In this document: positions 12,445-23,467 of the stretch, piece by piece
Layout of the letters: the number at the start of each line of letters is the position of its first letter
Numbering within the stretch: position 1 is the first letter of the stretch
Source: Bacteroidota bacterium
GTDB lineage: Bacteria; Bacteroidota; Bacteroidia; B-17B0; Aurantibacillaceae
Length of the DNA stretch: 64,000 nucleotides
Direction: 5' to 3'
Assembly: GCA_021323535.1 (NCBI GenBank)
Contig: JAJONO010000001.1
Location: forward strand, 79,535-143,534
The notes under the pieces: generated by a model
What the model saw: only the letters and a program-made list of their open reading frames with translations
What the model was told of the DNA's origin: nothing
The model's database searches: none
Program-made: the position numbers and the translations under genes

Positions 12445-13017
12445 ATGAAAACTACGAACAAGACATCCGCTAAAGCTTCGAACAGTGAATACGGAATGGA
12501 AGAAAGCACATTGATGAAATTATTTGAAGAAGAATTAAAAGACATTTACTGGGCTGAGAAAGCGCTCACGAAAGCAATTCCAAAAATGATAAAGAAAGCT
12601 ACTTCGGAAGAACTTATTGAAGCGCTCGAAAATCATCTCGAAGAAACAGAGAGCCAGGTAAAACGTGTTGAACGTGTTTTTGAATCGATTGGAAAAAAAG
12701 CCACTGCTAAAAAATGTGAAGCCATGGATGGTCTTATCAAAGAAGCTGAAGAAATTATGAAAGACTCGGAAGAAGGGGCCATGCGCGACGCGGGAATCAT
12801 TTCGGCTGCACAAAAAGTAGAACACTATGAAATCGCGTCTTACGGAACCCTTCGCACATTCGCGCAAACTCTTGGATTAGATGAAGCCGTTACCCTTCTC
12901 GAAGAAATTCTTGAAGAAGAAAAAGGAGCGGATGCGAAGCTTAGCGAAATCGCCGAATCTACTATCAACATACAGGCGGCCATGGAAGAAGAAGATGCCG
13001 AAGAGGAAGAAGAATAA
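12445..13017 (+). CDS. DUF892 / YciE-YciF-like ferritin-like protein
   Basis: LMKLFEEELKDIYWAEKALTKAIPKMIKKATS...HLEETESQVKRVERVFE...AQKVEHYEIASYGTLRTFA. Confidence 0.92.
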   Translation: MKTTNKTSAKASNSEYGMEESTLMKLFEEELKDIYWAEKALTKAIPKMIKKATSEELIEALENHLEETESQVKRVERVFESIGKKATAKKCEAMDGLIKEAEEIMKDSEEGAMRDAGIISAAQKVEHYEIASYGTLRTFAQTLGLDEAVTLLEEILEEEKGADAKLSEIAESTINIQAAMEEEDAEEEEE

Positions 13018-13040: not shown

Positions 13041-13069
13041 AAAAGGCAACTCGTCAGTTGCCTTTTTTT
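13041..13069 (+). terminator. Rho-independent terminator
   Basis: aggcaact-cgtc-agttgcct followed by a T tract, just before cphA copy 1. Confidence 0.8.
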
Positions 13070-13086: not shown

Positions 13087-15678
13087 ATGGAGATTAAAGA
13101 AATAAAAGTGATGCGTGGCCCCAACTATTGGTCACAGGAACAGAAAAACCTCATAGTACTTGTTGTGCGTCTTGATGAATTGCCTGAAAGCATAGTAAAG
13201 ATGATATCACAACAGGCTATCCGCGAATTACCTGGTCTTTCCTCAAAATACCACATCGAAGATTGCGTATGCACCGGCGCGGTTCAGCTCATAAAATACA
13301 TTGCGCTCGAACTTCAGTGTCTCGCAGGAATGGAGTGTAATTACTCCCGTTCAAAGGCTGGTCACGAGAAAGGCGAATACTTTATTACATTTTCCTATAC
13401 GGTTGAAGAAGCCGGACTTATTGCCGCTGAAGAAGCATTCAATATTACCGAAGCATTGATCAATAACGAGCCTTACGACACAGATAAAATTATTGAAACG
13501 CTCGCGCGAATTAAAACAAGAAATCAATACGGCGCCACGAGCGCGTACCTTCTTAACGAAGTTGAAAAAAGAGGAATACCTTACCGACGCTTTGATAATG
13601 GTTCGCTTATTACATTAGGCTACGGAAACAAACAGAAAAAAATACGTACAGCGGTAACCGACAGTACAAGCGGACTCGGAATTGAGTTAGCCGGAGATAA
13701 AGATGAAACAAAAAAAATTCTTAATGAAGCCGGACTTCCCGTGCCAAAAGGAATTGTGGTATACTCTGAAAAAGAACTCGAAGAACGAATCAGAGAAGTG
13801 AAATTTCCATTGGTTACCAAACCTCTCGACGGGAACCAGGGACGCGGCGTAACCATTAATATCAGGGATCTTGAAAAAGCCATGTACGGATTACAGATCG
13901 CTCAGAAAATATCGAGAGGTGTCATTATAGAAGAATTTATTGAGGGACACGATTATCGTTTCCTGGTTGTAGATTTTAAACTTGTTGCCGTTACAAAACG
14001 CATACCCGCTATGATCGTTGGTAACGGCACATCCACCATAGAACAACTCATTGAAGAAGAAAATAAAAACCCTCAACGCGGAAAAGAATCCAAACACGTT
14101 CTCGCTCTTATTAAAATAGATGACGTGACAAAAAACATTCTTTCAGAAAAAAATCTTGAGCTTCACTCTATACTTCCCCGGGGAGAGGAACTGAAGCTTA
14201 AACTCATTGCCAATATAAGCGCCGGCGGTACGGCCGAAGATGTTACTGATACCGTTCATCCCGAAAATATTTTTATGGCCGAACATGTTGCCCGCATTTT
14301 TAATCTCAACATTTGTGGCATTGATATCATGACAAAAGGGGTGGATCAACCAATCACAAGAGAAACAGGTGCTATTATCGAAGTAAACGCTGGTCCGGGT
14401 TTACGAATGCACTCTAACCCACAGAAAGGAACCTCAAGAAATGTAGCGGCACCTGTTATCGACATGCTTTTCCCTTCGAACAACAATGCCCGTATTCCCA
14501 TTGTTGCCATAACAGGTACCAATGGAAAGACCACTACAACCAGGCTCATAGCGCATCTCGCCAAACAGGCCGGATTCAAACCCGGATTTTGTACAACAGA
14601 AGGAATTTACATCGATGGACATTTAACACACCAGGGCGATTGCACAGGATTCATCAGCGCGCAGGATGTACTCTTCGATCCGCTTGTTGATTTTGCAGTA
14701 CTGGAATGCGCCCGTGGAGGAATTCTTAAATCGGGATTAGGGTTTACTAACTGCGATGTCAGCATTATCACAAACATTACCGAGGATCATCTTGGATTAA
14801 AACACATTCACACATTAGATGAGATGGCCAAAGTAAAAAGTGTTGTCGCTAAAAGTACTTTCCCGCATGGATACTGTATACTGAATGCTGATAATGACCT
14901 GTGCTATAAAATTAAAGATGACCTGGATTGCAAAATAGCATTGTTCAGTCTTAAATCCGATAATGAAAGAATCATGAAACATCGCAATGAAGGCGGATTA
15001 GCGGTTGCTGTTGAAGAAGGCTATGTTACTGTTTACAATGGTCACAGCGGCATACGCATTGAACACATAGAGAACATACCTTTAAGTTTCAGAGGAAAAG
15101 CCAACTACATGGTGAAAAATATTTTACCCGCCGTACTTGCCTCTGTTATGAGTGGCTTCAGTATTACTGATATACAAACAGGCTTAAGAACTTTTATACC
15201 TTCTCCAACACACACACCGGGACGAATGAATCTTTTCGATTTTCACAATTTTAAAGTGATGGTGGATTACGCTCATAATATGGATGGTTTCTTTGAACTT
15301 AAACGCATGCTAGACCAGGTAGAAGATACCCCAAAAATTGGTGTAATTGCCGTTGCAGGAGACCGGAGAGACGACGACATAAGACATGTTGGATTACTCG
15401 CGGCCACTATATTTGATAAGCTCATTATTAAACATGATAAAGATCTGAGAGGAAGAACCGCCCAGGAGATCACGGACCTTCTTAAACAGGGTATCGCGCA
15501 AATGAACAAGCACGTTCCTACAGAAGTTATCCCGGATGAAAAAGAAGCGATTGATTATGCCGTAGGACACGCCGAGAAAGGTTCGTTCATTTTAATCTGC
15601 GCCGGAACCGTTTTTGAAACCATTGAGTATGTGGGCCAGCTTCAGCGCATAAATAATTTAACTTCTCATATCCTGTAA
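13087..15678 (+). CDS. cphA: Cyanophycin synthetase, copy 1
   Basis: 863 aa: N-domain, ATP-grasp (KPLDGNQGRGVTINI, IIEVNAGPGLRMH) and Mur ligase-like domain with GTNGKTTTTRLIAHLAK, LECARGGILKSGLGF, TNITEDHLGL, DYAHN; followed by cyanophycinase. Confidence 0.95.
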   Translation: MEIKEIKVMRGPNYWSQEQKNLIVLVVRLDELPESIVKMISQQAIRELPGLSSKYHIEDCVCTGAVQLIKYIALELQCLAGMECNYSRSKAGHEKGEYFITFSYTVEEAGLIAAEEAFNITEALINNEPYDTDKIIETLARIKTRNQYGATSAYLLNEVEKRGIPYRRFDNGSLITLGYGNKQKKIRTAVTDSTSGLGIELAGDKDETKKILNEAGLPVPKGIVVYSEKELEERIREVKFPLVTKPLDGNQGRGVTINIRDLEKAMYGLQIAQKISRGVIIEEFIEGHDYRFLVVDFKLVAVTKRIPAMIVGNGTSTIEQLIEEENKNPQRGKESKHVLALIKIDDVTKNILSEKNLELHSILPRGEELKLKLIANISAGGTAEDVTDTVHPENIFMAEHVARIFNLNICGIDIMTKGVDQPITRETGAIIEVNAGPGLRMHSNPQKGTSRNVAAPVIDMLFPSNNNARIPIVAITGTNGKTTTTRLIAHLAKQAGFKPGFCTTEGIYIDGHLTHQGDCTGFISAQDVLFDPLVDFAVLECARGGILKSGLGFTNCDVSIITNITEDHLGLKHIHTLDEMAKVKSVVAKSTFPHGYCILNADNDLCYKIKDDLDCKIALFSLKSDNERIMKHRNEGGLAVAVEEGYVTVYNGHSGIRIEHIENIPLSFRGKANYMVKNILPAVLASVMSGFSITDIQTGLRTFIPSPTHTPGRMNLFDFHNFKVMVDYAHNMDGFFELKRMLDQVEDTPKIGVIAVAGDRRDDDIRHVGLLAATIFDKLIIKHDKDLRGRTAQEITDLLKQGIAQMNKHVPTEVIPDEKEAIDYAVGHAEKGSFILICAGTVFETIEYVGQLQRINNLTSHIL

Positions 15679-15679
15679 T

Positions 15680-16567
15680 ATGCCTTCAAAGATACCAAAA
15701 GGAAAATTGCTCATCATTGGAGGCGCCGAAGATAAAGGCAAAGGTGAAGAGCCCGATATTGTAAACAAGAACAAAAACTTCAGGCATCACGAAATCCTGA
15801 AGCAACTTGTACCCAAAAACAAAAAAAAAACTATAGAGATAGTTACAACAGCCTCTTCGGAACCTGATAAAGTAAGCAAACGCTACAAAAAAGTGTTTAT
15901 CGAAATGGGAGCGAAAAATATCGGGTTCATCAACATGGGAAATAATTATGAAACCAGGAACCCCCTTTTTACTAAACGAATAAAAAAAGCGTACGCTGTA
16001 TTATTCAGTGGCGGCGATCAGTTCAGACTCTCCAGCATTTTAGGAAACACCGATGTGCTCAGGGTTATTCTTGAAAGATACATGAACGATAAAGACTTTA
16101 TTGTTGCCGGAACCAGCGCAGGAGCAGCTGCAGCCGGAGTACTCATGATGTATGAAGGAGAAAACAATGAGGCCATTCTGAAAGGCGCGGTAAAAGTAAG
16201 CTCAGGACTCGGCTTTATAGATTTCTGTATTATCGATACTCATTTTATAAAACGTGGAAGATTTGGACGATTGTCAGAAGCCATTGTCATGAACCCAACC
16301 TGCATCGGTATCGGACTCGGTGAAGATACAGCATTGCTGATAACAAAAGGAAAAGAAGCTAAATGCCTTGGCTCAGGAATGGTGATTATCATTGACGGAA
16401 AAGATGTTGGCCATACTAACATAGCATACGCCGAAAACGATACGCCGCTTTGCATTGAAAGTCTGAAAATTCATGTATTATGCAATGGTTGCGGATTCAG
16501 GTTCAGCGATCGGAAATTTATACCATCGAAGGAAAATCTGAGAATTGAAAAAAAATTAAAAGGCTGA
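15680..16567 (+). CDS. cphB: Cyanophycinase, copy 1 (peptidase S51-like)
   Basis: LLIIGGAEDKG, FSGGDQFRLS, GTSAGAAAAG, DTHFIKRGRFGRL, GIGLGEDTALLI. Confidence 0.94.
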   Translation: MPSKIPKGKLLIIGGAEDKGKGEEPDIVNKNKNFRHHEILKQLVPKNKKKTIEIVTTASSEPDKVSKRYKKVFIEMGAKNIGFINMGNNYETRNPLFTKRIKKAYAVLFSGGDQFRLSSILGNTDVLRVILERYMNDKDFIVAGTSAGAAAAGVLMMYEGENNEAILKGAVKVSSGLGFIDFCIIDTHFIKRGRFGRLSEAIVMNPTCIGIGLGEDTALLITKGKEAKCLGSGMVIIIDGKDVGHTNIAYAENDTPLCIESLKIHVLCNGCGFRFSDRKFIPSKENLRIEKKLKG

Positions 16568-17484
16568 TGTCTAAAATTTCACTTGTTATTCATGGAGGCG
16601 CAAGAAAAGATTCGGAATTCATTCGCGAATACCGTGACGACTACAAAGCGGCCCTCACCGAAGTTTCTCAGCTTACCTACGCCATTCTGAAAAAAGGAAA
16701 ACACGCGCTCGACGCTGTTGAGGCCGCCGTTGTGTATATGGAGGATCATATTCTTTTTAACGCCGGCAGGGGATCTGCCATTAACTCGGTTGGAGAAACA
16801 GAAATGGAAGCCGCCATTATGGAAGGAAAAGAACTACGCTCGGGCGCGGTAACTCTTCTTAAGAAAGTTAAAAATCCCGTCAGCCTGGCACGGCATATTC
16901 TTGAGGATAGTAAACATATTCTTCTCGGAGCAGAAGGAGCGTTAGAGTATGCTAAATATAAAAAAGTACAACTGGAGTACGACTCGTATTTTATTACTCC
17001 GCACCAGTACGATGTTTTTATGGAGGAACGTGATTCAAAAACCGAGAAGGAAAAAGAAAATATTCTTAATCATGGAACGGTAGGAGCCGTTGCGTTTGAT
17101 TCTAAAGGAAATATTGCAGCCGCCACTTCTACTGGTGGGCTTGCTTTTAACCGAAAAGGACGGGTCGGCGATGCCTGCATGATCGGGATAGGTTGTTATG
17201 CCAATAATAAAACCTGTGGAGTTTGCTCAACCGGTGATGGAGAGATCAATATAAGAAACACTTCCGCAGCATACATTTCAATGCTTCTTGAACACACCTC
17301 TCTTTCTATACAGGAGGCGTGCAACTATCTTATTCACTCCAGAAATAAGGATACAACAAGTGATATGGGATTAATTGCCATTGATAAATCCGGTAATATC
17401 GGGATCTCGTATAATACAGAATTAATGCATCGGGCCTGGATAAGTTCTGAAAGGGGGCTACAGGTTAAAATTTACGAACCCTGA
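16567..17484 (+). CDS. iaaA: Isoaspartyl peptidase / L-asparaginase (Ntn-hydrolase), copy 1
   Basis: VIHGGA, DAVEAAVVYMED, FNAGRGSAIN, NHGTVGAVAFDSKGNIAAATSTGG (predicted nucleophile Thr). Confidence 0.94.
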   Translation: MSKISLVIHGGARKDSEFIREYRDDYKAALTEVSQLTYAILKKGKHALDAVEAAVVYMEDHILFNAGRGSAINSVGETEMEAAIMEGKELRSGAVTLLKKVKNPVSLARHILEDSKHILLGAEGALEYAKYKKVQLEYDSYFITPHQYDVFMEERDSKTEKEKENILNHGTVGAVAFDSKGNIAAATSTGGLAFNRKGRVGDACMIGIGCYANNKTCGVCSTGDGEINIRNTSAAYISMLLEHTSLSIQEACNYLIHSRNKDTTSDMGLIAIDKSGNIGISYNTELMHRAWISSERGLQVKIYEP

Positions 17485-17518: not shown

Positions 17519-18565
17519 ATGAATTACGATACTAAAAAACTGGTTCTTGCAATCGGGAGCATTGTTGGTATGGTCATTATCTACCAGCTTGTATTTTTTA
17601 TTCTTAAAAGATGGTCGCGTAAACAAAAAAGAATTATTCCCGAATTACTTAACGAGCATATTTATTTTCCCGGACTATTCTTCGTTCTTGTTGTAGCGCT
17701 TTTCTTTGTGCTTCTGTTACTGGAAGAGTATGTTAATCTGAAATTTTTCAGGGTGGCCCGTCATATACTTACTATATCAGGAATTATAACCTCGGGGATC
17801 CTTGTCATTAAAACAATAACCGTATTCAGGGAAATCACATTCAATCAATACAAGGTCCGCAATCCGCTCGATTACTCTTTAAGAAAAACAAAAACAAAGT
17901 TTCAGCTTATACAGCGCATCTTAAATTTCTTAATTGTATTTGCAATGTTCGCCATTATCTTAATGACATTTGACAGCATCAGGCAGATAGGTGGAACGCT
18001 TCTCGCCTCTGCCGGCGTTGTGGGACTTGTAATAGGTTTTGCCGCACAAAAAAGTCTGGGTACTTTATTCGCCGGAATTCAAATCGCTATTTCGCAGCCA
18101 ATACGTATTGATGATGTTGTAGTTGTAGAAGAACAATTCGGAACCATTGGCGAAATTACGCTTACATATGTTATCGTTAATTCATGGGATGGACGAAGAC
18201 TGGTTGTGCCAATCAGTTATTTTCTTGAAAAACCTTTCGAGAACTGGACAAGGGTATCTCCCGAAATTGTAGCTAAAGTTAAAATACATGCCGATTATAC
18301 CTTACCCATTGAAGAAATAAGACAGGAATTTAAAAAGTGGATCGAAACATCAGAGTTGTGGGATAAACGTCGTTGTAATTTTCTTGTAACGGGCGCCAAC
18401 GATAAAACAATTGAAGTACGTGGAACAGCAACTGCAAGAAATTCGGACGACGCGTATGATCTTGAATGTATTATCAGGGAAAAACTGATCACCTATATCA
18501 GGGAGCACCATCCAACCTGTTTACCAACTACGCGGATCTCAAAAATAGAATCGCCTAAAACATAA
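17519..18565 (+). CDS. MscS-family mechanosensitive ion channel
   Basis: GGTLLASAGVVGLVIGFAAQKSLGTLFAGIQIAISQPIRIDDVVVVEEQFGTIGEITLTYVIV. Confidence 0.93.
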   Translation: MNYDTKKLVLAIGSIVGMVIIYQLVFFILKRWSRKQKRIIPELLNEHIYFPGLFFVLVVALFFVLLLLEEYVNLKFFRVARHILTISGIITSGILVIKTITVFREITFNQYKVRNPLDYSLRKTKTKFQLIQRILNFLIVFAMFAIILMTFDSIRQIGGTLLASAGVVGLVIGFAAQKSLGTLFAGIQIAISQPIRIDDVVVVEEQFGTIGEITLTYVIVNSWDGRRLVVPISYFLEKPFENWTRVSPEIVAKVKIHADYTLPIEEIRQEFKKWIETSELWDKRRCNFLVTGANDKTIEVRGTATARNSDDAYDLECIIREKLITYIREHHPTCLPTTRISKIESPKT

Positions 18566-18986: not shown

Positions 18987-21641
18987 ATGAAGATCATAAG
19001 TATTAAAGTGATGAGAGGGCCGAACTACTGGTCGAACTACCGCAAAAATATTATAGTAATGAAGCTCGATATCGGAGAGCTTGAACAATATCCGACCAAT
19101 AAGATCGAAGGGTTTTCCGCTCGTCTTGAAAAACTTATCCCATCTATGTACACACACCGCTGTTCCGAAAGTCATGACGGTGGTTTTTTTGAAAGAGTAA
19201 AAGAAGGAACCTGGATGGGGCACGTGATAGAACACATTGCCCTCGAAATACAAACTCTCGCGGGAATGGATGTAGGATACGGACGCACGCGTTCCGATAA
19301 AAAAGAAGGTGTGTACAATGTTGTATTCTCTTACATTCTTGAGCGCGCCGGACTTTACGCGGCAAAAGCGGCAATAAGAGTTGCCGAAGCATTGATTGAA
19401 GGCAAGGAATACAACATTACCGAAGACATTGAGGCTCTCAAGAAAATAAAAGCAAGCGATGCCTTTGGCCCAAGCACACAATCTATTATTGACGAAGCCG
19501 TAAAAAAAGGAATTCCTTATAAAAGATTAAACAATAGCTCTTTTGTTTTATTGGGACATGGTATTCACCAGAAGAAGATCCGCGCCACCATGACAAGCAA
19601 CACCAGCGCCATGGGAGTTGAAATGGCCTGTGATAAAAATGAAACCAAAGAAACACTGAGATGTGCCCACATACCAACACCGGCATCGGTGCTCATTGAA
19701 AATAAAAAAGAACTTAACGAAGCTATTAAAGATATTGGATATCCGATTGTGATAAAACCTATTAATGGAAATCACGGAAGAGGAATCACCACCAATATCA
19801 GATCGCTTGAAGAAGCGAAAACAGCATTCGCAATTGCAAAGGAAATTTCGGATGAAATACTTGTAGAAAAATTTGTAGAAGGATACGACTTCCGTTTTCT
19901 GCTCATCAATTTTAAACTGGTTGCTGTTGCAAAACGCACACCGGCAATGGTAACCGGTAATGGAAAAATGACCATACAGCAACTCATCGATGAAACCAAT
20001 AAAGATCCCAACCGGGGGGATGGACATGAAAAAATTCTTACAAAGATCAAAGTGGATAAAATCACCCAGGAAATTCTTGTGAAAAAAAATTACACGCTGG
20101 ATTCCGTTCTGGAAAAAGATGAGACCCTGTTTCTAAAAGACACAGCCAACATTAGCACCGGAGGAACTTCCACCGACGTAACTGACCGCGTTCATCCTGC
20201 AAACATTATTATGGCCGAGCGTATTGCAAGGCTTCTTAACCTGGATATTTGCGGTATTGACATTGTTGCCAATTCCGTTGAAACTCCAATCACAGAAAAA
20301 AACGGAGGCGTACTCGAAGTAAATGCCTGCCCTGGTTTCAGAATGCACCTCTTCCCTTCACATGGAAATCCTGTAAATGTGGCCAAACATGTAGTGGATA
20401 TGCTTTACCCGAAAGGTTCCGAATTCCGTATACCCGTGGTAGCTGTAACAGGCACCAACGGAAAAACTACCACTACGCGTTTAATTGCTCATCTTGCAAA
20501 AGAGGCCGGACATAAAGTAGGTTACACAACAACTGATGGAATTTATATTCAGGATCAGATCATTCATTACGGTGACTGCACCGGACCAAACAGCTCACAA
20601 ACTATATTGCACGACCCAATGGTTGACTTCGCTGTACTGGAATGCGCTCGCGGCGGTATTCTCCGTTCGGGTTTAGGATTCGACAATTGCGACATCAGTG
20701 TTATTACCAATATTTCGGAAGATCATTTATCACTTGACGGCATCGACTCCATAAGAGAAATGGCTATTGTGAAATCAGTGGTGGCACACAGTACGTTTAA
20801 ACATGGCTATTCAATTCTGAACGCCGATGATGATACGGTATATGAAATTTCAAGGGACCTTCATTGTAATATTGCCTTATTCAGTGTAGAAGAAAATAAC
20901 CCGAGGATCATGGAGCATTGCGAAAAAGGAGGAATCGCGATTAGCATTGAAAATGATTTTATTGTCATTCATTCGGGACAGACTAAAATTCCTGTTGAAA
21001 AAATTAACGACGTACCTTTAAGTTTTGATGGCAGAGCCGGTTTCATGATCAAAAATATTTTACCGGCGGTTTTAGCGGCTTACCTGAAAAATGTAAGCAT
21101 CAATACCATTCGCATGGGGTTACGCACTTTTATTCCCTCTCCGAAATTTACTCCAGGCAGAATGAACATATTTAATTTCAGAAATTTTGATGTCATGATC
21201 GATTATGCTCATAACAGCGGTGGACTTATGGAGTTGAAAAAATTTATGGATAAAACCAGTGCGCCGCATAAGGTGGGAATAATCGCTGCTGTTGGCGACA
21301 GGAGAGAAGAAGACATCAGGAACATCGGAGCTTTCTCTGCACAGATGTTTGATGAACTCATTATCCGACATGACGAAGATCTGAGGGGAAGAACACGTGA
21401 AGAGCTCAATGAATTACTTATAGAAGGAATCAAAAAACAAAACCCGGATATTCCTATTAAAATAATTTCAGATGAACAGGATGCCATAACTCACGCTATG
21501 CAAAACGCAAAGCAGGGAGCCTTTATTACCGTATTTACGGATTCTGTTATGGAAAGCATTGAGTTTTTAACCACTGCCCAGCAAAAAGAAGAAATGCAGT
21601 ATTCAACTTCTCCCAAACAAATATTACTTAAGGCATCATAA
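18987..21641 (+). CDS. cphA: Cyanophycin synthetase, copy 2
   Basis: 884 aa: N-domain with TWMGHVIEHIALEIQTLAGM, ATP-grasp (KPINGNHGRGITTNI, LEVNACPGFRMH), Mur domain GTNGKTTTTRLIAHLAK and GDCTGPNSSQ; followed by cyanophycinase. Confidence 0.96.
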   Translation: MKIISIKVMRGPNYWSNYRKNIIVMKLDIGELEQYPTNKIEGFSARLEKLIPSMYTHRCSESHDGGFFERVKEGTWMGHVIEHIALEIQTLAGMDVGYGRTRSDKKEGVYNVVFSYILERAGLYAAKAAIRVAEALIEGKEYNITEDIEALKKIKASDAFGPSTQSIIDEAVKKGIPYKRLNNSSFVLLGHGIHQKKIRATMTSNTSAMGVEMACDKNETKETLRCAHIPTPASVLIENKKELNEAIKDIGYPIVIKPINGNHGRGITTNIRSLEEAKTAFAIAKEISDEILVEKFVEGYDFRFLLINFKLVAVAKRTPAMVTGNGKMTIQQLIDETNKDPNRGDGHEKILTKIKVDKITQEILVKKNYTLDSVLEKDETLFLKDTANISTGGTSTDVTDRVHPANIIMAERIARLLNLDICGIDIVANSVETPITEKNGGVLEVNACPGFRMHLFPSHGNPVNVAKHVVDMLYPKGSEFRIPVVAVTGTNGKTTTTRLIAHLAKEAGHKVGYTTTDGIYIQDQIIHYGDCTGPNSSQTILHDPMVDFAVLECARGGILRSGLGFDNCDISVITNISEDHLSLDGIDSIREMAIVKSVVAHSTFKHGYSILNADDDTVYEISRDLHCNIALFSVEENNPRIMEHCEKGGIAISIENDFIVIHSGQTKIPVEKINDVPLSFDGRAGFMIKNILPAVLAAYLKNVSINTIRMGLRTFIPSPKFTPGRMNIFNFRNFDVMIDYAHNSGGLMELKKFMDKTSAPHKVGIIAAVGDRREEDIRNIGAFSAQMFDELIIRHDEDLRGRTREELNELLIEGIKKQNPDIPIKIISDEQDAITHAMQNAKQGAFITVFTDSVMESIEFLTTAQQKEEMQYSTSPKQILLKAS

Positions 21642-21650
21642 TACAGAAGT

Positions 21651-22535
21651 ATGACACCAAAAGGAAAACTTTTGATCATCGGAGGCGCCGAAGATAAAGG
21701 GCCCATCAGGATAAGACCACAGATCAAATTAAAAAATAAAAGCTATGTGGACTACGAGATCCTTCAACGACTTATTCCTGAAGCCGGATCAAAATTCAAT
21801 CGTATAGAGATTATTACAACGGCTTCGCAGCAGCCTTTCAAAACGGGCAACATGTACATTCGCTCATTTAAAAAAGCGGGATTTTTAAATGTGAATCATA
21901 TGAGCATTGAAAATAAGGAGGAACTTAAAAATCCGGATCTTATTCAGAGAATTGAAAACGCAGATACCGTTTTTTTTAGCGGCGGTGATCAGTTCAGGTT
22001 ATCCACCATTCTTGGCGGTTCTGAATTAATGGAGGTGATCAGAAGAAGATATTTTGAAGATGAACATTTTTTACTGGCAGGTACGAGCGCTGGCGCCATG
22101 GCTATGGGACATCTTATGATCTATCATGCCGAAAATAATGAAGCCATGTTAAAGGGTCACGTTAAAATCACGAACGGACTCGAGATAATGGACAATGCCA
22201 TGGTAGATACACATTTTGTAAAACGCGGACGTTTTGGAAGACTCGCCCAGGCTATTATCATGAATCCTGATTGTCTTGGTATTGGCCTTGGTGAAGACAC
22301 TGCTTTATTAATCACCAATGGAAATGAAGCAGTTTGCATGGGCTCGGGAATGGTTGTTATCATCGACGGTTCACAGATCTGTTATAACAACCTGCAAGAA
22401 GTGGAAGAGGATTTTCCTTTATGCGTAGAAGGCTTGCGCGTTCATCTTCTTGTAAGAAACAATGGCTATCTTCTTCATGAAAAACAATTCATTCCTAAAG
22501 CCACAAAGGTTTTAAAGGAAGAGGGTCATTTATAA
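21651..22535 (+). CDS. cphB: Cyanophycinase, copy 2
   Basis: LLIIGGAEDKG, FSGGDQFRLS, GTSAGAMAMG, DTHFVKRGRFGRL, GIGLGEDTALLI. Confidence 0.95.
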   Translation: MTPKGKLLIIGGAEDKGPIRIRPQIKLKNKSYVDYEILQRLIPEAGSKFNRIEIITTASQQPFKTGNMYIRSFKKAGFLNVNHMSIENKEELKNPDLIQRIENADTVFFSGGDQFRLSTILGGSELMEVIRRRYFEDEHFLLAGTSAGAMAMGHLMIYHAENNEAMLKGHVKITNGLEIMDNAMVDTHFVKRGRFGRLAQAIIMNPDCLGIGLGEDTALLITNGNEAVCMGSGMVVIIDGSQICYNNLQEVEEDFPLCVEGLRVHLLVRNNGYLLHEKQFIPKATKVLKEEGHL

Positions 22536-23467
22536 ATCCCTATTATCAATTCACTGTCGCTTGCTTTACCGGCACGGTACATTCCTTCGGTATTGAATAA
22601 CATTTCAATATTTCCATTCGGATCCACTGCAATTAATCCACCTTCGCCCCCCATTTCAGCCAGTTTTTTATGTACAACAAATGTACAGGCTTCTTTTAAT
22701 GTCAGTCCTTTATATTCTATCAGGCAGGAGATGTCGTACGCCACAACAGCTCTCATAAAATACTCGCCATGTCCTGTACAGGATACGGCACATGTTTTAT
22801 TGTTTGCATAAGTTCCCGCTCCAATGATGGGGCTATCGCCTATCCTGCCATGCTGTTTATTTGTCATTCCCCCGGTGGATGTGGCGGCAGCAAGATTACC
22901 ATAAGCATCAAGGGCCACAGCTCCTACGGTCCCGAATTTTTTATTGTCAGCATTTTTTACACTCGTATGATCAAGAATGATGACATCATTTTCTCTTGCT
23001 TTCTGCAACTGATCATATCGGTATTGCACAAAAAAATAATCATCTGACTCAAGCGGGATCCCCATTTTTTTTGCAAAATCAACTGCGCCTCCTCCTGAAA
23101 GGAAGACATGTTCGCTGTTTTCCATAACGGTGCGTGCCAGCGTAATTGGATTTTTTACATTATAAACACCACTTATAGCGCCAGCCATAAGGCTTTTTCC
23201 TTCCATGATAGAAGCATCCATTTCGTTACGTCCCTCATGAGTAAACACAGAGCCTTTTCCTGCGTTAAAGAGCGGGGTATCTTCAAGCTGACGTACCACC
23301 GCTTCAACGGCGTCAATAGCAAGGCCCTTATCCAGAAGGATTTTATCCCCAACAAGCAGGGCGTCTTTCAGAGCTCCCGCATATTGAGCTTCTTTGGCTT
23401 CACTCATCTGCGAGCGAAGGATGGTTCCTGCTCCACCATGAATCGCTATTGCTGTTTTGGTTGTCAT
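22526..23467 (-). CDS. iaaA: Isoaspartyl peptidase / L-asparaginase, copy 2
   Basis: AIHGGAG, DAVEAVVRQLEDTPLFNAGKGSV, KFGTVGAVALDAYGNLAAATSTGG, YANNKTCAVSCTGHGE. Confidence 0.95.
   Translation of the reverse strand: MTTKTAIAIHGGAGTILRSQMSEAKEAQYAGALKDALLVGDKILLDKGLAIDAVEAVVRQLEDTPLFNAGKGSVFTHEGRNEMDASIMEGKSLMAGAISGVYNVKNPITLARTVMENSEHVFLSGGGAVDFAKKMGIPLESDDYFFVQYRYDQLQKARENDVIILDHTSVKNADNKKFGTVGAVALDAYGNLAAATSTGGMTNKQHGRIGDSPIIGAGTYANNKTCAVSCTGHGEYFMRAVVAYDISCLIEYKGLTLKEACTFVVHKKLAEMGGEGGLIAVDPNGNIEMLFNTEGMYRAGKASDSELIIGIYK

Follow-up and report, generated by a model that had tools for sequence, protein, structure and literature searches.

A cyanophycin synthetase predicted to have lost its primer-generating site is encoded beside an intact paralogue in a clade of Bacteroidota

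We analyzed a stretch of 64,000 nucleotides (hereinafter the window) from the contig JAJONO010000001.1 of a Bacteroidota bacterium, which contains two genes for cyanophycin synthetases. The first of these, cphA copy 1 (13087..15678, + strand), codes for a protein of 863 aa and the second, cphA copy 2 (18987..21641, +), for one of 884 aa; the two proteins are 51% identical and both are full-length synthetases, scoring 1018.6 and 1216.7 bits, respectively, with the TIGR02068 profile (cut-off 850). Pfam searches resolve copy 1 into an N domain, an ATP-grasp G domain and a MurE-like M domain, and its TIGR02068 score marks it as a CphA1. Directly downstream of copy 1 are cphB1 (15680..16567, +), which codes for a cyanophycinase (TIGR02069, 208.3 bits) with the GTSAGA nucleophile and DTHF motifs, and a gene for an IaaA-like isoaspartyl peptidase, iaaA1 (16567..17484, +; PF01112, E 6e-90), with the GTVGAVA nucleophile motif. 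A gene for an MscS-type channel (17519..18565, +; PF00924) divides the cluster into two halves, and copy 2 is followed by a second cyanophycinase gene, cphB2 (21651..22535, +; TIGR02069, 207.2 bits), and by iaaA2 for a second isoaspartyl peptidase on the opposite strand (22526..23467, -). Alignments show the catalytic motifs to be intact in both CphBs and both IaaAs. Upstream of copy 1 are a gene for a DUF892 protein (12445..13017, +; PF05974, E 4e-58) and a terminator-like hairpin with an 11 bp stem and a U run (13041..13066, +; z -3.2 in the window), which ends 20 bases before the start codon of copy 1. A search of the window genome, which is 97.5% complete, recovered no CphA or cyanophycinase beyond these two of each.

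In CphA1 the N domain may bear a Zn metallopeptidase-like site with the signature Cx19HxxEH, which cuts cyanophycin into primers (PMC9262961), and the hydrolytic, primer-making N-domain site to which the original prediction referred is a published one. At 70% non-redundancy, 83% of CphA1s have the complete site, while about 17% are without it (PMC9262961); hence, a CphA1 with a silent N domain is in itself not new, because both the site and its absence have already been reported. A residue-level alignment with SuCphA1 of Synechocystis sp. UTEX2470 revealed that copy 2 has the identical three-domain layout and possesses every residue of the N site (H57, C59, F67, R70, H79, E82, H83 and E87) at the same numbering. 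Its HxxEH helix, TWMGHVIEHIALEIQTLAGM, spans residues 75-94 (19209..19268, +), with C59 and H57 just upstream. Thus, Cx19HxxEH, the mark of primer-independent CphA1s, is complete in copy 2 along with H57, F67 and R70. Copy 1 differs from SuCphA1 in missing the N site as a whole, in addition to having Q at position 267: in its degenerate active-site helix, CTGAVQLIKYIALELQCLAGM (residues 62-82; 13270..13332, +), Q67, K70 and Y71 stand in place of H79, E82 and H83, and the equivalent of E87 is the sole N-site residue that is kept. The loop bearing metal ligands before this helix is about 10 residues shorter, so that C59, F67 and R70 have no counterparts. These results bear out the loss of HxxEH in copy 1, its retention in copy 2 and the shortening just before the motif, as originally proposed from a comparison of the two copies, with both stretches placed correctly to within 1-3 bases. 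The changes are concentrated in the N domain, where copy 1 departs from 21 of the 45 positions conserved in related intact CphAs, versus 13 of the 90 G-domain and 4 of the 92 M-domain positions; judged by these residues, the change at the N site exceeds general drift. Consistently, the Pfam model of the N domain matches copy 1 with 47.8 bits, over positions 52-115 only, versus 158.1 bits for copy 2.

We modeled the N domain of copy 1 (13087..13536, +) on its own, as the G domain was of low quality in the full-length AlphaFold2 model (overall pLDDT 58.5). The N-domain model, built from a 27-row alignment, attains a pLDDT of 88.6, and a Foldseek comparison with published structures returned SuCphA1 as its best PDB match (TMq 0.85, E 1e-9), followed by TeCphA1, TmCphA1 and the A. 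baylyi CphA, with CphA2 matching more weakly. The helix that formerly bore HxxEH is still predicted at residues 65-79. Thus, copy 1 is predicted to keep the CphA1 fold in its N domain, while the metal site is, from the residues present, absent. Among characterized enzymes a close parallel in this regard is TmCphA1 of Tatumella morbirosei, which like copy 1 is without all four residues of Cx19HxxEH and whose loop preceding the helix is likewise shortened; copy 1 differs in belonging to a Bacteroidota clade with an independent loss and in being encoded beside an N-intact paralogue.

To place the two copies among their relatives, we searched 88 genomes of the family of the window organism (a search of the order yielded the same 88), together with 392 from its class and 36 from a second genus, and additionally scanned one genome per GTDB species with two peptide patterns. 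Two families, here labeled f1 and f22, were found to contain four classes of CphA: A, the usual CphA1; B, the copy 2 type; C, the copy 1 type; and D. Wherever the N domain of an A- or B-type protein is readable, the N site is present, whereas it is absent in all members of C and D. Clade C is found in at least eight genomes, four from f1 (G000, G013, G014 and G030) and four from f22 (G433, G469, G474 and G476), a count that is a minimum because the scan used two peptide patterns; seven of these genomes, all MAGs of Bacteroidetes/Bacteroidota, were matched again in the species-level scan. Another genome, G468, contains a truncated relative. As the N-silent state is common to eight genomes with intact reading frames, a sequencing or frameshift artefact is excluded. 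In a tree computed from the columns of the G and M domains, with the N domain left out, clade C is monophyletic (support 100) and nested in the B lineage, while clade D (100) falls outside B. This separation points to two separate losses of the N site, and a single loss event for all N-silent copies is unsupported. A D-type N-silent CphA is also encoded on a 66-kb plasmid of Chryseobacterium sp. SNU WT5, where it adjoins a gene for a DUF3891 protein (L289, 4977-7550), suggesting that clade D may move between hosts.

We then compared the constraint on the domains of the C- and B-type proteins. In the four f1 genomes, the mean pairwise identity of the C-type proteins is 0.59 for the N domain, 0.78 for G and 0.78 for M, versus 0.79, 0.75 and 0.76 for the B-type proteins; the corresponding values in f22 are 0.53, 0.87 and 0.84 for C and 0.82, 0.885 and 0.84 for B. 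Only in the pair G433-G474 are synonymous sites clearly short of saturation in both copies; here the C-type proteins have a dN/dS of 0.15 for N and 0.047 for G+M, and the B-type proteins one of 0.072 for N and 0.053 for G+M. Over the pairs compared, dividing the dN of the N domain by that of G+M gives values from 1.9 to 4.3 for C and from 0.7 to 1.3 for B. In the window genome, the G+M branch of copy 1 (0.25) is not longer than that of copy 2 (0.37). Constraint on the N domain of clade C is thus, by these comparisons, relaxed, yet present. Since the G+M portion of clade C is constrained like that of its partner, with the N domain evolving about 2-4 times faster, the clade is under purifying selection and copy 1 is maintained; its G+M conservation and dN/dS rule out a pseudogene.

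The G domain of copy 1 displays R309, R323, N394, S396, D431, E450 and R458, together with K499, and its M domain keeps the P-loop (TGTNGKT), D585/H586 and the Mur ligase C-terminal domain. In this it resembles, and departs from, the cyanobacterial CphA2: both are second synthetases without the N-site motif alongside an N-active CphA1, but CphA2, which polymerizes dipeptides, has lost the P-loop and lid of its M domain (PMC9427784), and the intact M domain of copy 1 rules out its being a CphA2. The G-domain exception in copy 1 is Q251 (codon 13837..13839, +), which corresponds to H267 in the G-domain P-loop of SuCphA1. A role in stabilizing the G-domain acylphosphate has been proposed for H267, and the H267A mutation abolishes G-domain activity in SuCphA1 and makes TeCphA1 less active (PMC9262961, PMC9427784). 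Within clade C this substitution is confined to copy 1, the other seven proteins having H. More widely, Q267 was found in 9 of 22 N-silent versus 1 of about 190 N-intact CphAs, counts for which the N-silent set was corrected by eye, with L125 (masked), L293 and L294 (both with longer spacing) taken as intact, L045 as N-silent and L288 as a Mur-ligase homologue. Besides copy 1, it is carried by five of the seven proteins of clade D, by the D-type copy of Chryseobacterium and by the second copies of Ralstonia; counted by lineage, Q267 is found in about three that are N-silent and one that is N-intact. The latter is represented by an N-intact Parafilimonas copy (L224/L301), and H267Q therefore does not strictly mark N-silent copies. 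It is conceivable that Q267 tunes the reaction, rather than abolishing it. Changes common to clade C are found in the G-omega module, where DGH is replaced, and at D523 (D523E). As the G-omega module takes part in aspartate recognition, the substrate or kinetics of clade C may differ.

Copies with a silent N domain keep distinctive company. Among the genomes of f1 and f22 they occur in 12 of the 28 that have multiple cphA copies versus none of the 61 that have one, and all 12 also encode an N-intact partner. The association with multiple copies is significant by Fisher's test (p 1.3e-7) when relatedness is ignored; as the pairing rests on only two loss events, the 12 genomes are not 12 independent tests. 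Beyond these families we considered selected cases, namely Ralstonia, Deinococcus deserti and the Pleurocapsales cyanobacterium LEGE 10410. In D. deserti the copy on plasmid 1 is N-silent and that on plasmid 2 N-intact, while the LEGE 10410 genome encodes a three-domain protein without the N-site motif (L304) and an N-intact one (L298). Adjoining cphA copies are known from Burkholderiales and other non-cyanobacteria, according to PMC10687191, which cites Fuser and Steinbuchel 2007. The tandem pairs of Ralstonia (L290, 2287-4947 and 5001-7568; L287, 2255-7565) parallel that of the window in being adjoining genes, the first N-intact and the second N-silent. The first Ralstonia copy is without the G-domain residues R323, S396 and R458, whereas the second keeps these and has H267Q; the losses in the two copies are therefore complementary, unlike the situation in the window, where copy 2 keeps everything. 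Elsewhere, on plasmids of Ruegeria and Shinella, a shorter Mur ligase gene directly follows an N-intact cphA (L293, 6817-8553; L294, 6818-8623).

The gene neighborhoods of clade C show two arrangements. In f1 the order is DUF892-C-cphB1-iaaA1-B-cphB2-iaaA2, with iaaA2 on the opposite strand and an MscS gene before B in G000; in f22 it is B-iaaA2-DUF892-C-cphB1, again with iaaA2 inverted. The C and B genes are adjacent in seven of the eight genomes. In the eighth, G030, the C gene ends near the end of its contig, and B lies on another contig, starting 725 bases in. The DUF892 gene is found directly 5' of the C-type cphA in all eight genomes; a further DUF892 gene occurs near the D-type cphA of G476. 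Between DUF892 and C there is a terminator-like hairpin in all eight loci (the window and L039, L043, L044, L146, L188, L189 and L190), with stem sequences that are unrelated between f1 and f22. Its presence just upstream of every C-type cphA suggests that expression of C may depend on read-through from DUF892. G014 and G030 have no cphB1 gene beside C and G013 has a split one, whereas the cphB2 beside B is kept; the disrupted cphB1 sites are at L044 7591-8474, L043 7586-7615 and L039 9586-9793.

Taken together, we favor, with a probability of about 0.6, a division of labor in which copy 2 makes both primers and polymer, while copy 1 only elongates. Copy 2 would be a self-sufficient three-site enzyme, with the Zn site of its N domain cutting nascent chains into short primers. 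The N domain of copy 1 would survive as a scaffold; being without the metal site, copy 1 could only lengthen existing chains and would most likely draw on primers that copy 2 sets free, whether by diffusion through the cell or by transfer within mixed assemblies. It is very likely that copy 1 lacks hydrolysis and likely that it has synthetase activity. Priming of copy 1 by copy 2 in trans is more likely than not, and is plausible because TmCphA1, which is without the N site and needs a primer, was rendered primer-independent by the isolated N domain of SuCphA1 supplied in trans (PMC9262961). A caution against the division of labor is the H267Q substitution of copy 1, at a position where Ala inactivates or impairs characterized CphA1s; the G-omega changes of clade C also speak against it.

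It also counts against this account that TmCphA1 is, according to the literature, devoid of the N site, so that an N-silent CphA is able to function in the absence of such a partner. The strongest contender, albeit a rather unlikely one, is that copy 1 is a primer-dependent synthetase using chains from incomplete cyanophycin breakdown, independently of the N domain of copy 2. Such leftover chains, or other small molecules, are what PMC9262961 itself suggests as primers for N-inactive CphA1s, and both CphBs of the window keep their catalytic motifs. The original prediction had likewise named CphB as a possible source besides copy 2; in its simple form this is less likely, since cyanophycinase is an exo-enzyme releasing β-Asp-Arg dipeptides (PMC9262961; PMC10206079), which do not prime TmCphA1, the minimum primer being β-Asp-Arg-Asp (PMC9262961), and only incompletely degraded chains could serve. 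Priming by leftover chains leaves unexplained both the N-intact partner of every N-silent copy in f1 and f22 and the linkage of C with B, and the cphB beside C is missing or broken in three of the clade C genomes.

Slightly less probable again is a drift of copy 1 to a different reaction or product, for instance with another amino acid or acceptor, the N-site loss being a side effect. The G-omega changes and D523E of clade C would be in keeping with this, as would Q267 in copy 1, most of clade D and the second copies of Ralstonia; however, R309, R323, N394, S396, R458, K499, D585 and H586 are all kept, and clade C genes stay beside those for cyanophycinases and isoaspartyl peptidases. It is improbable that copy 1 is catalytically weak or inactive, serving mainly as a structural partner of copy 2 or being on its way out: H267Q in the G-domain P-loop and the hairpin directly upstream, which suggests low expression, could be so understood, but the clade has a G+M dN/dS of about 0.05 and no stops, and the G+M branch of copy 1 is no longer than that of copy 2. 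Hydrolysis through an alternative metal site in copy 1 is most improbable, since, although every clade C protein has H56 and copy 1 has Cys60/Cys62 close to it, these cysteines are not conserved in the clade, only E5, H56, E107 and E122 are invariant among the possible ligands of its eight N domains, no conserved ligand set thus being found, and the general base E82 is replaced by Lys in copy 1 and by either Lys or Arg in the other clade C proteins.

To judge from the open literature, the conserved pairing of N-intact and N-silent synthetases with a measured domain-specific relaxation, as read from these sequences, appears to be new. More tentatively, and with less confidence than for the division of labor in the window, we suggest that two-component machines comprising a primer maker and an elongator, possibly as mixed tetramers, might have evolved repeatedly when one of two synthetases encoded together lost its N site. 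At least two clades of Bacteroidota would have taken this route independently of each other, as apparently did Ralstonia, Deinococcus deserti and a cyanobacterium of the Pleurocapsales, and H267Q would often accompany the loss in the elongator. Natural pairs of this kind make trans-priming directly testable by point mutants and might allow primer supply and chain growth to be tuned separately in cyanophycin production; they also bear on how CphA1s without the N-domain site obtain their primers in cells.
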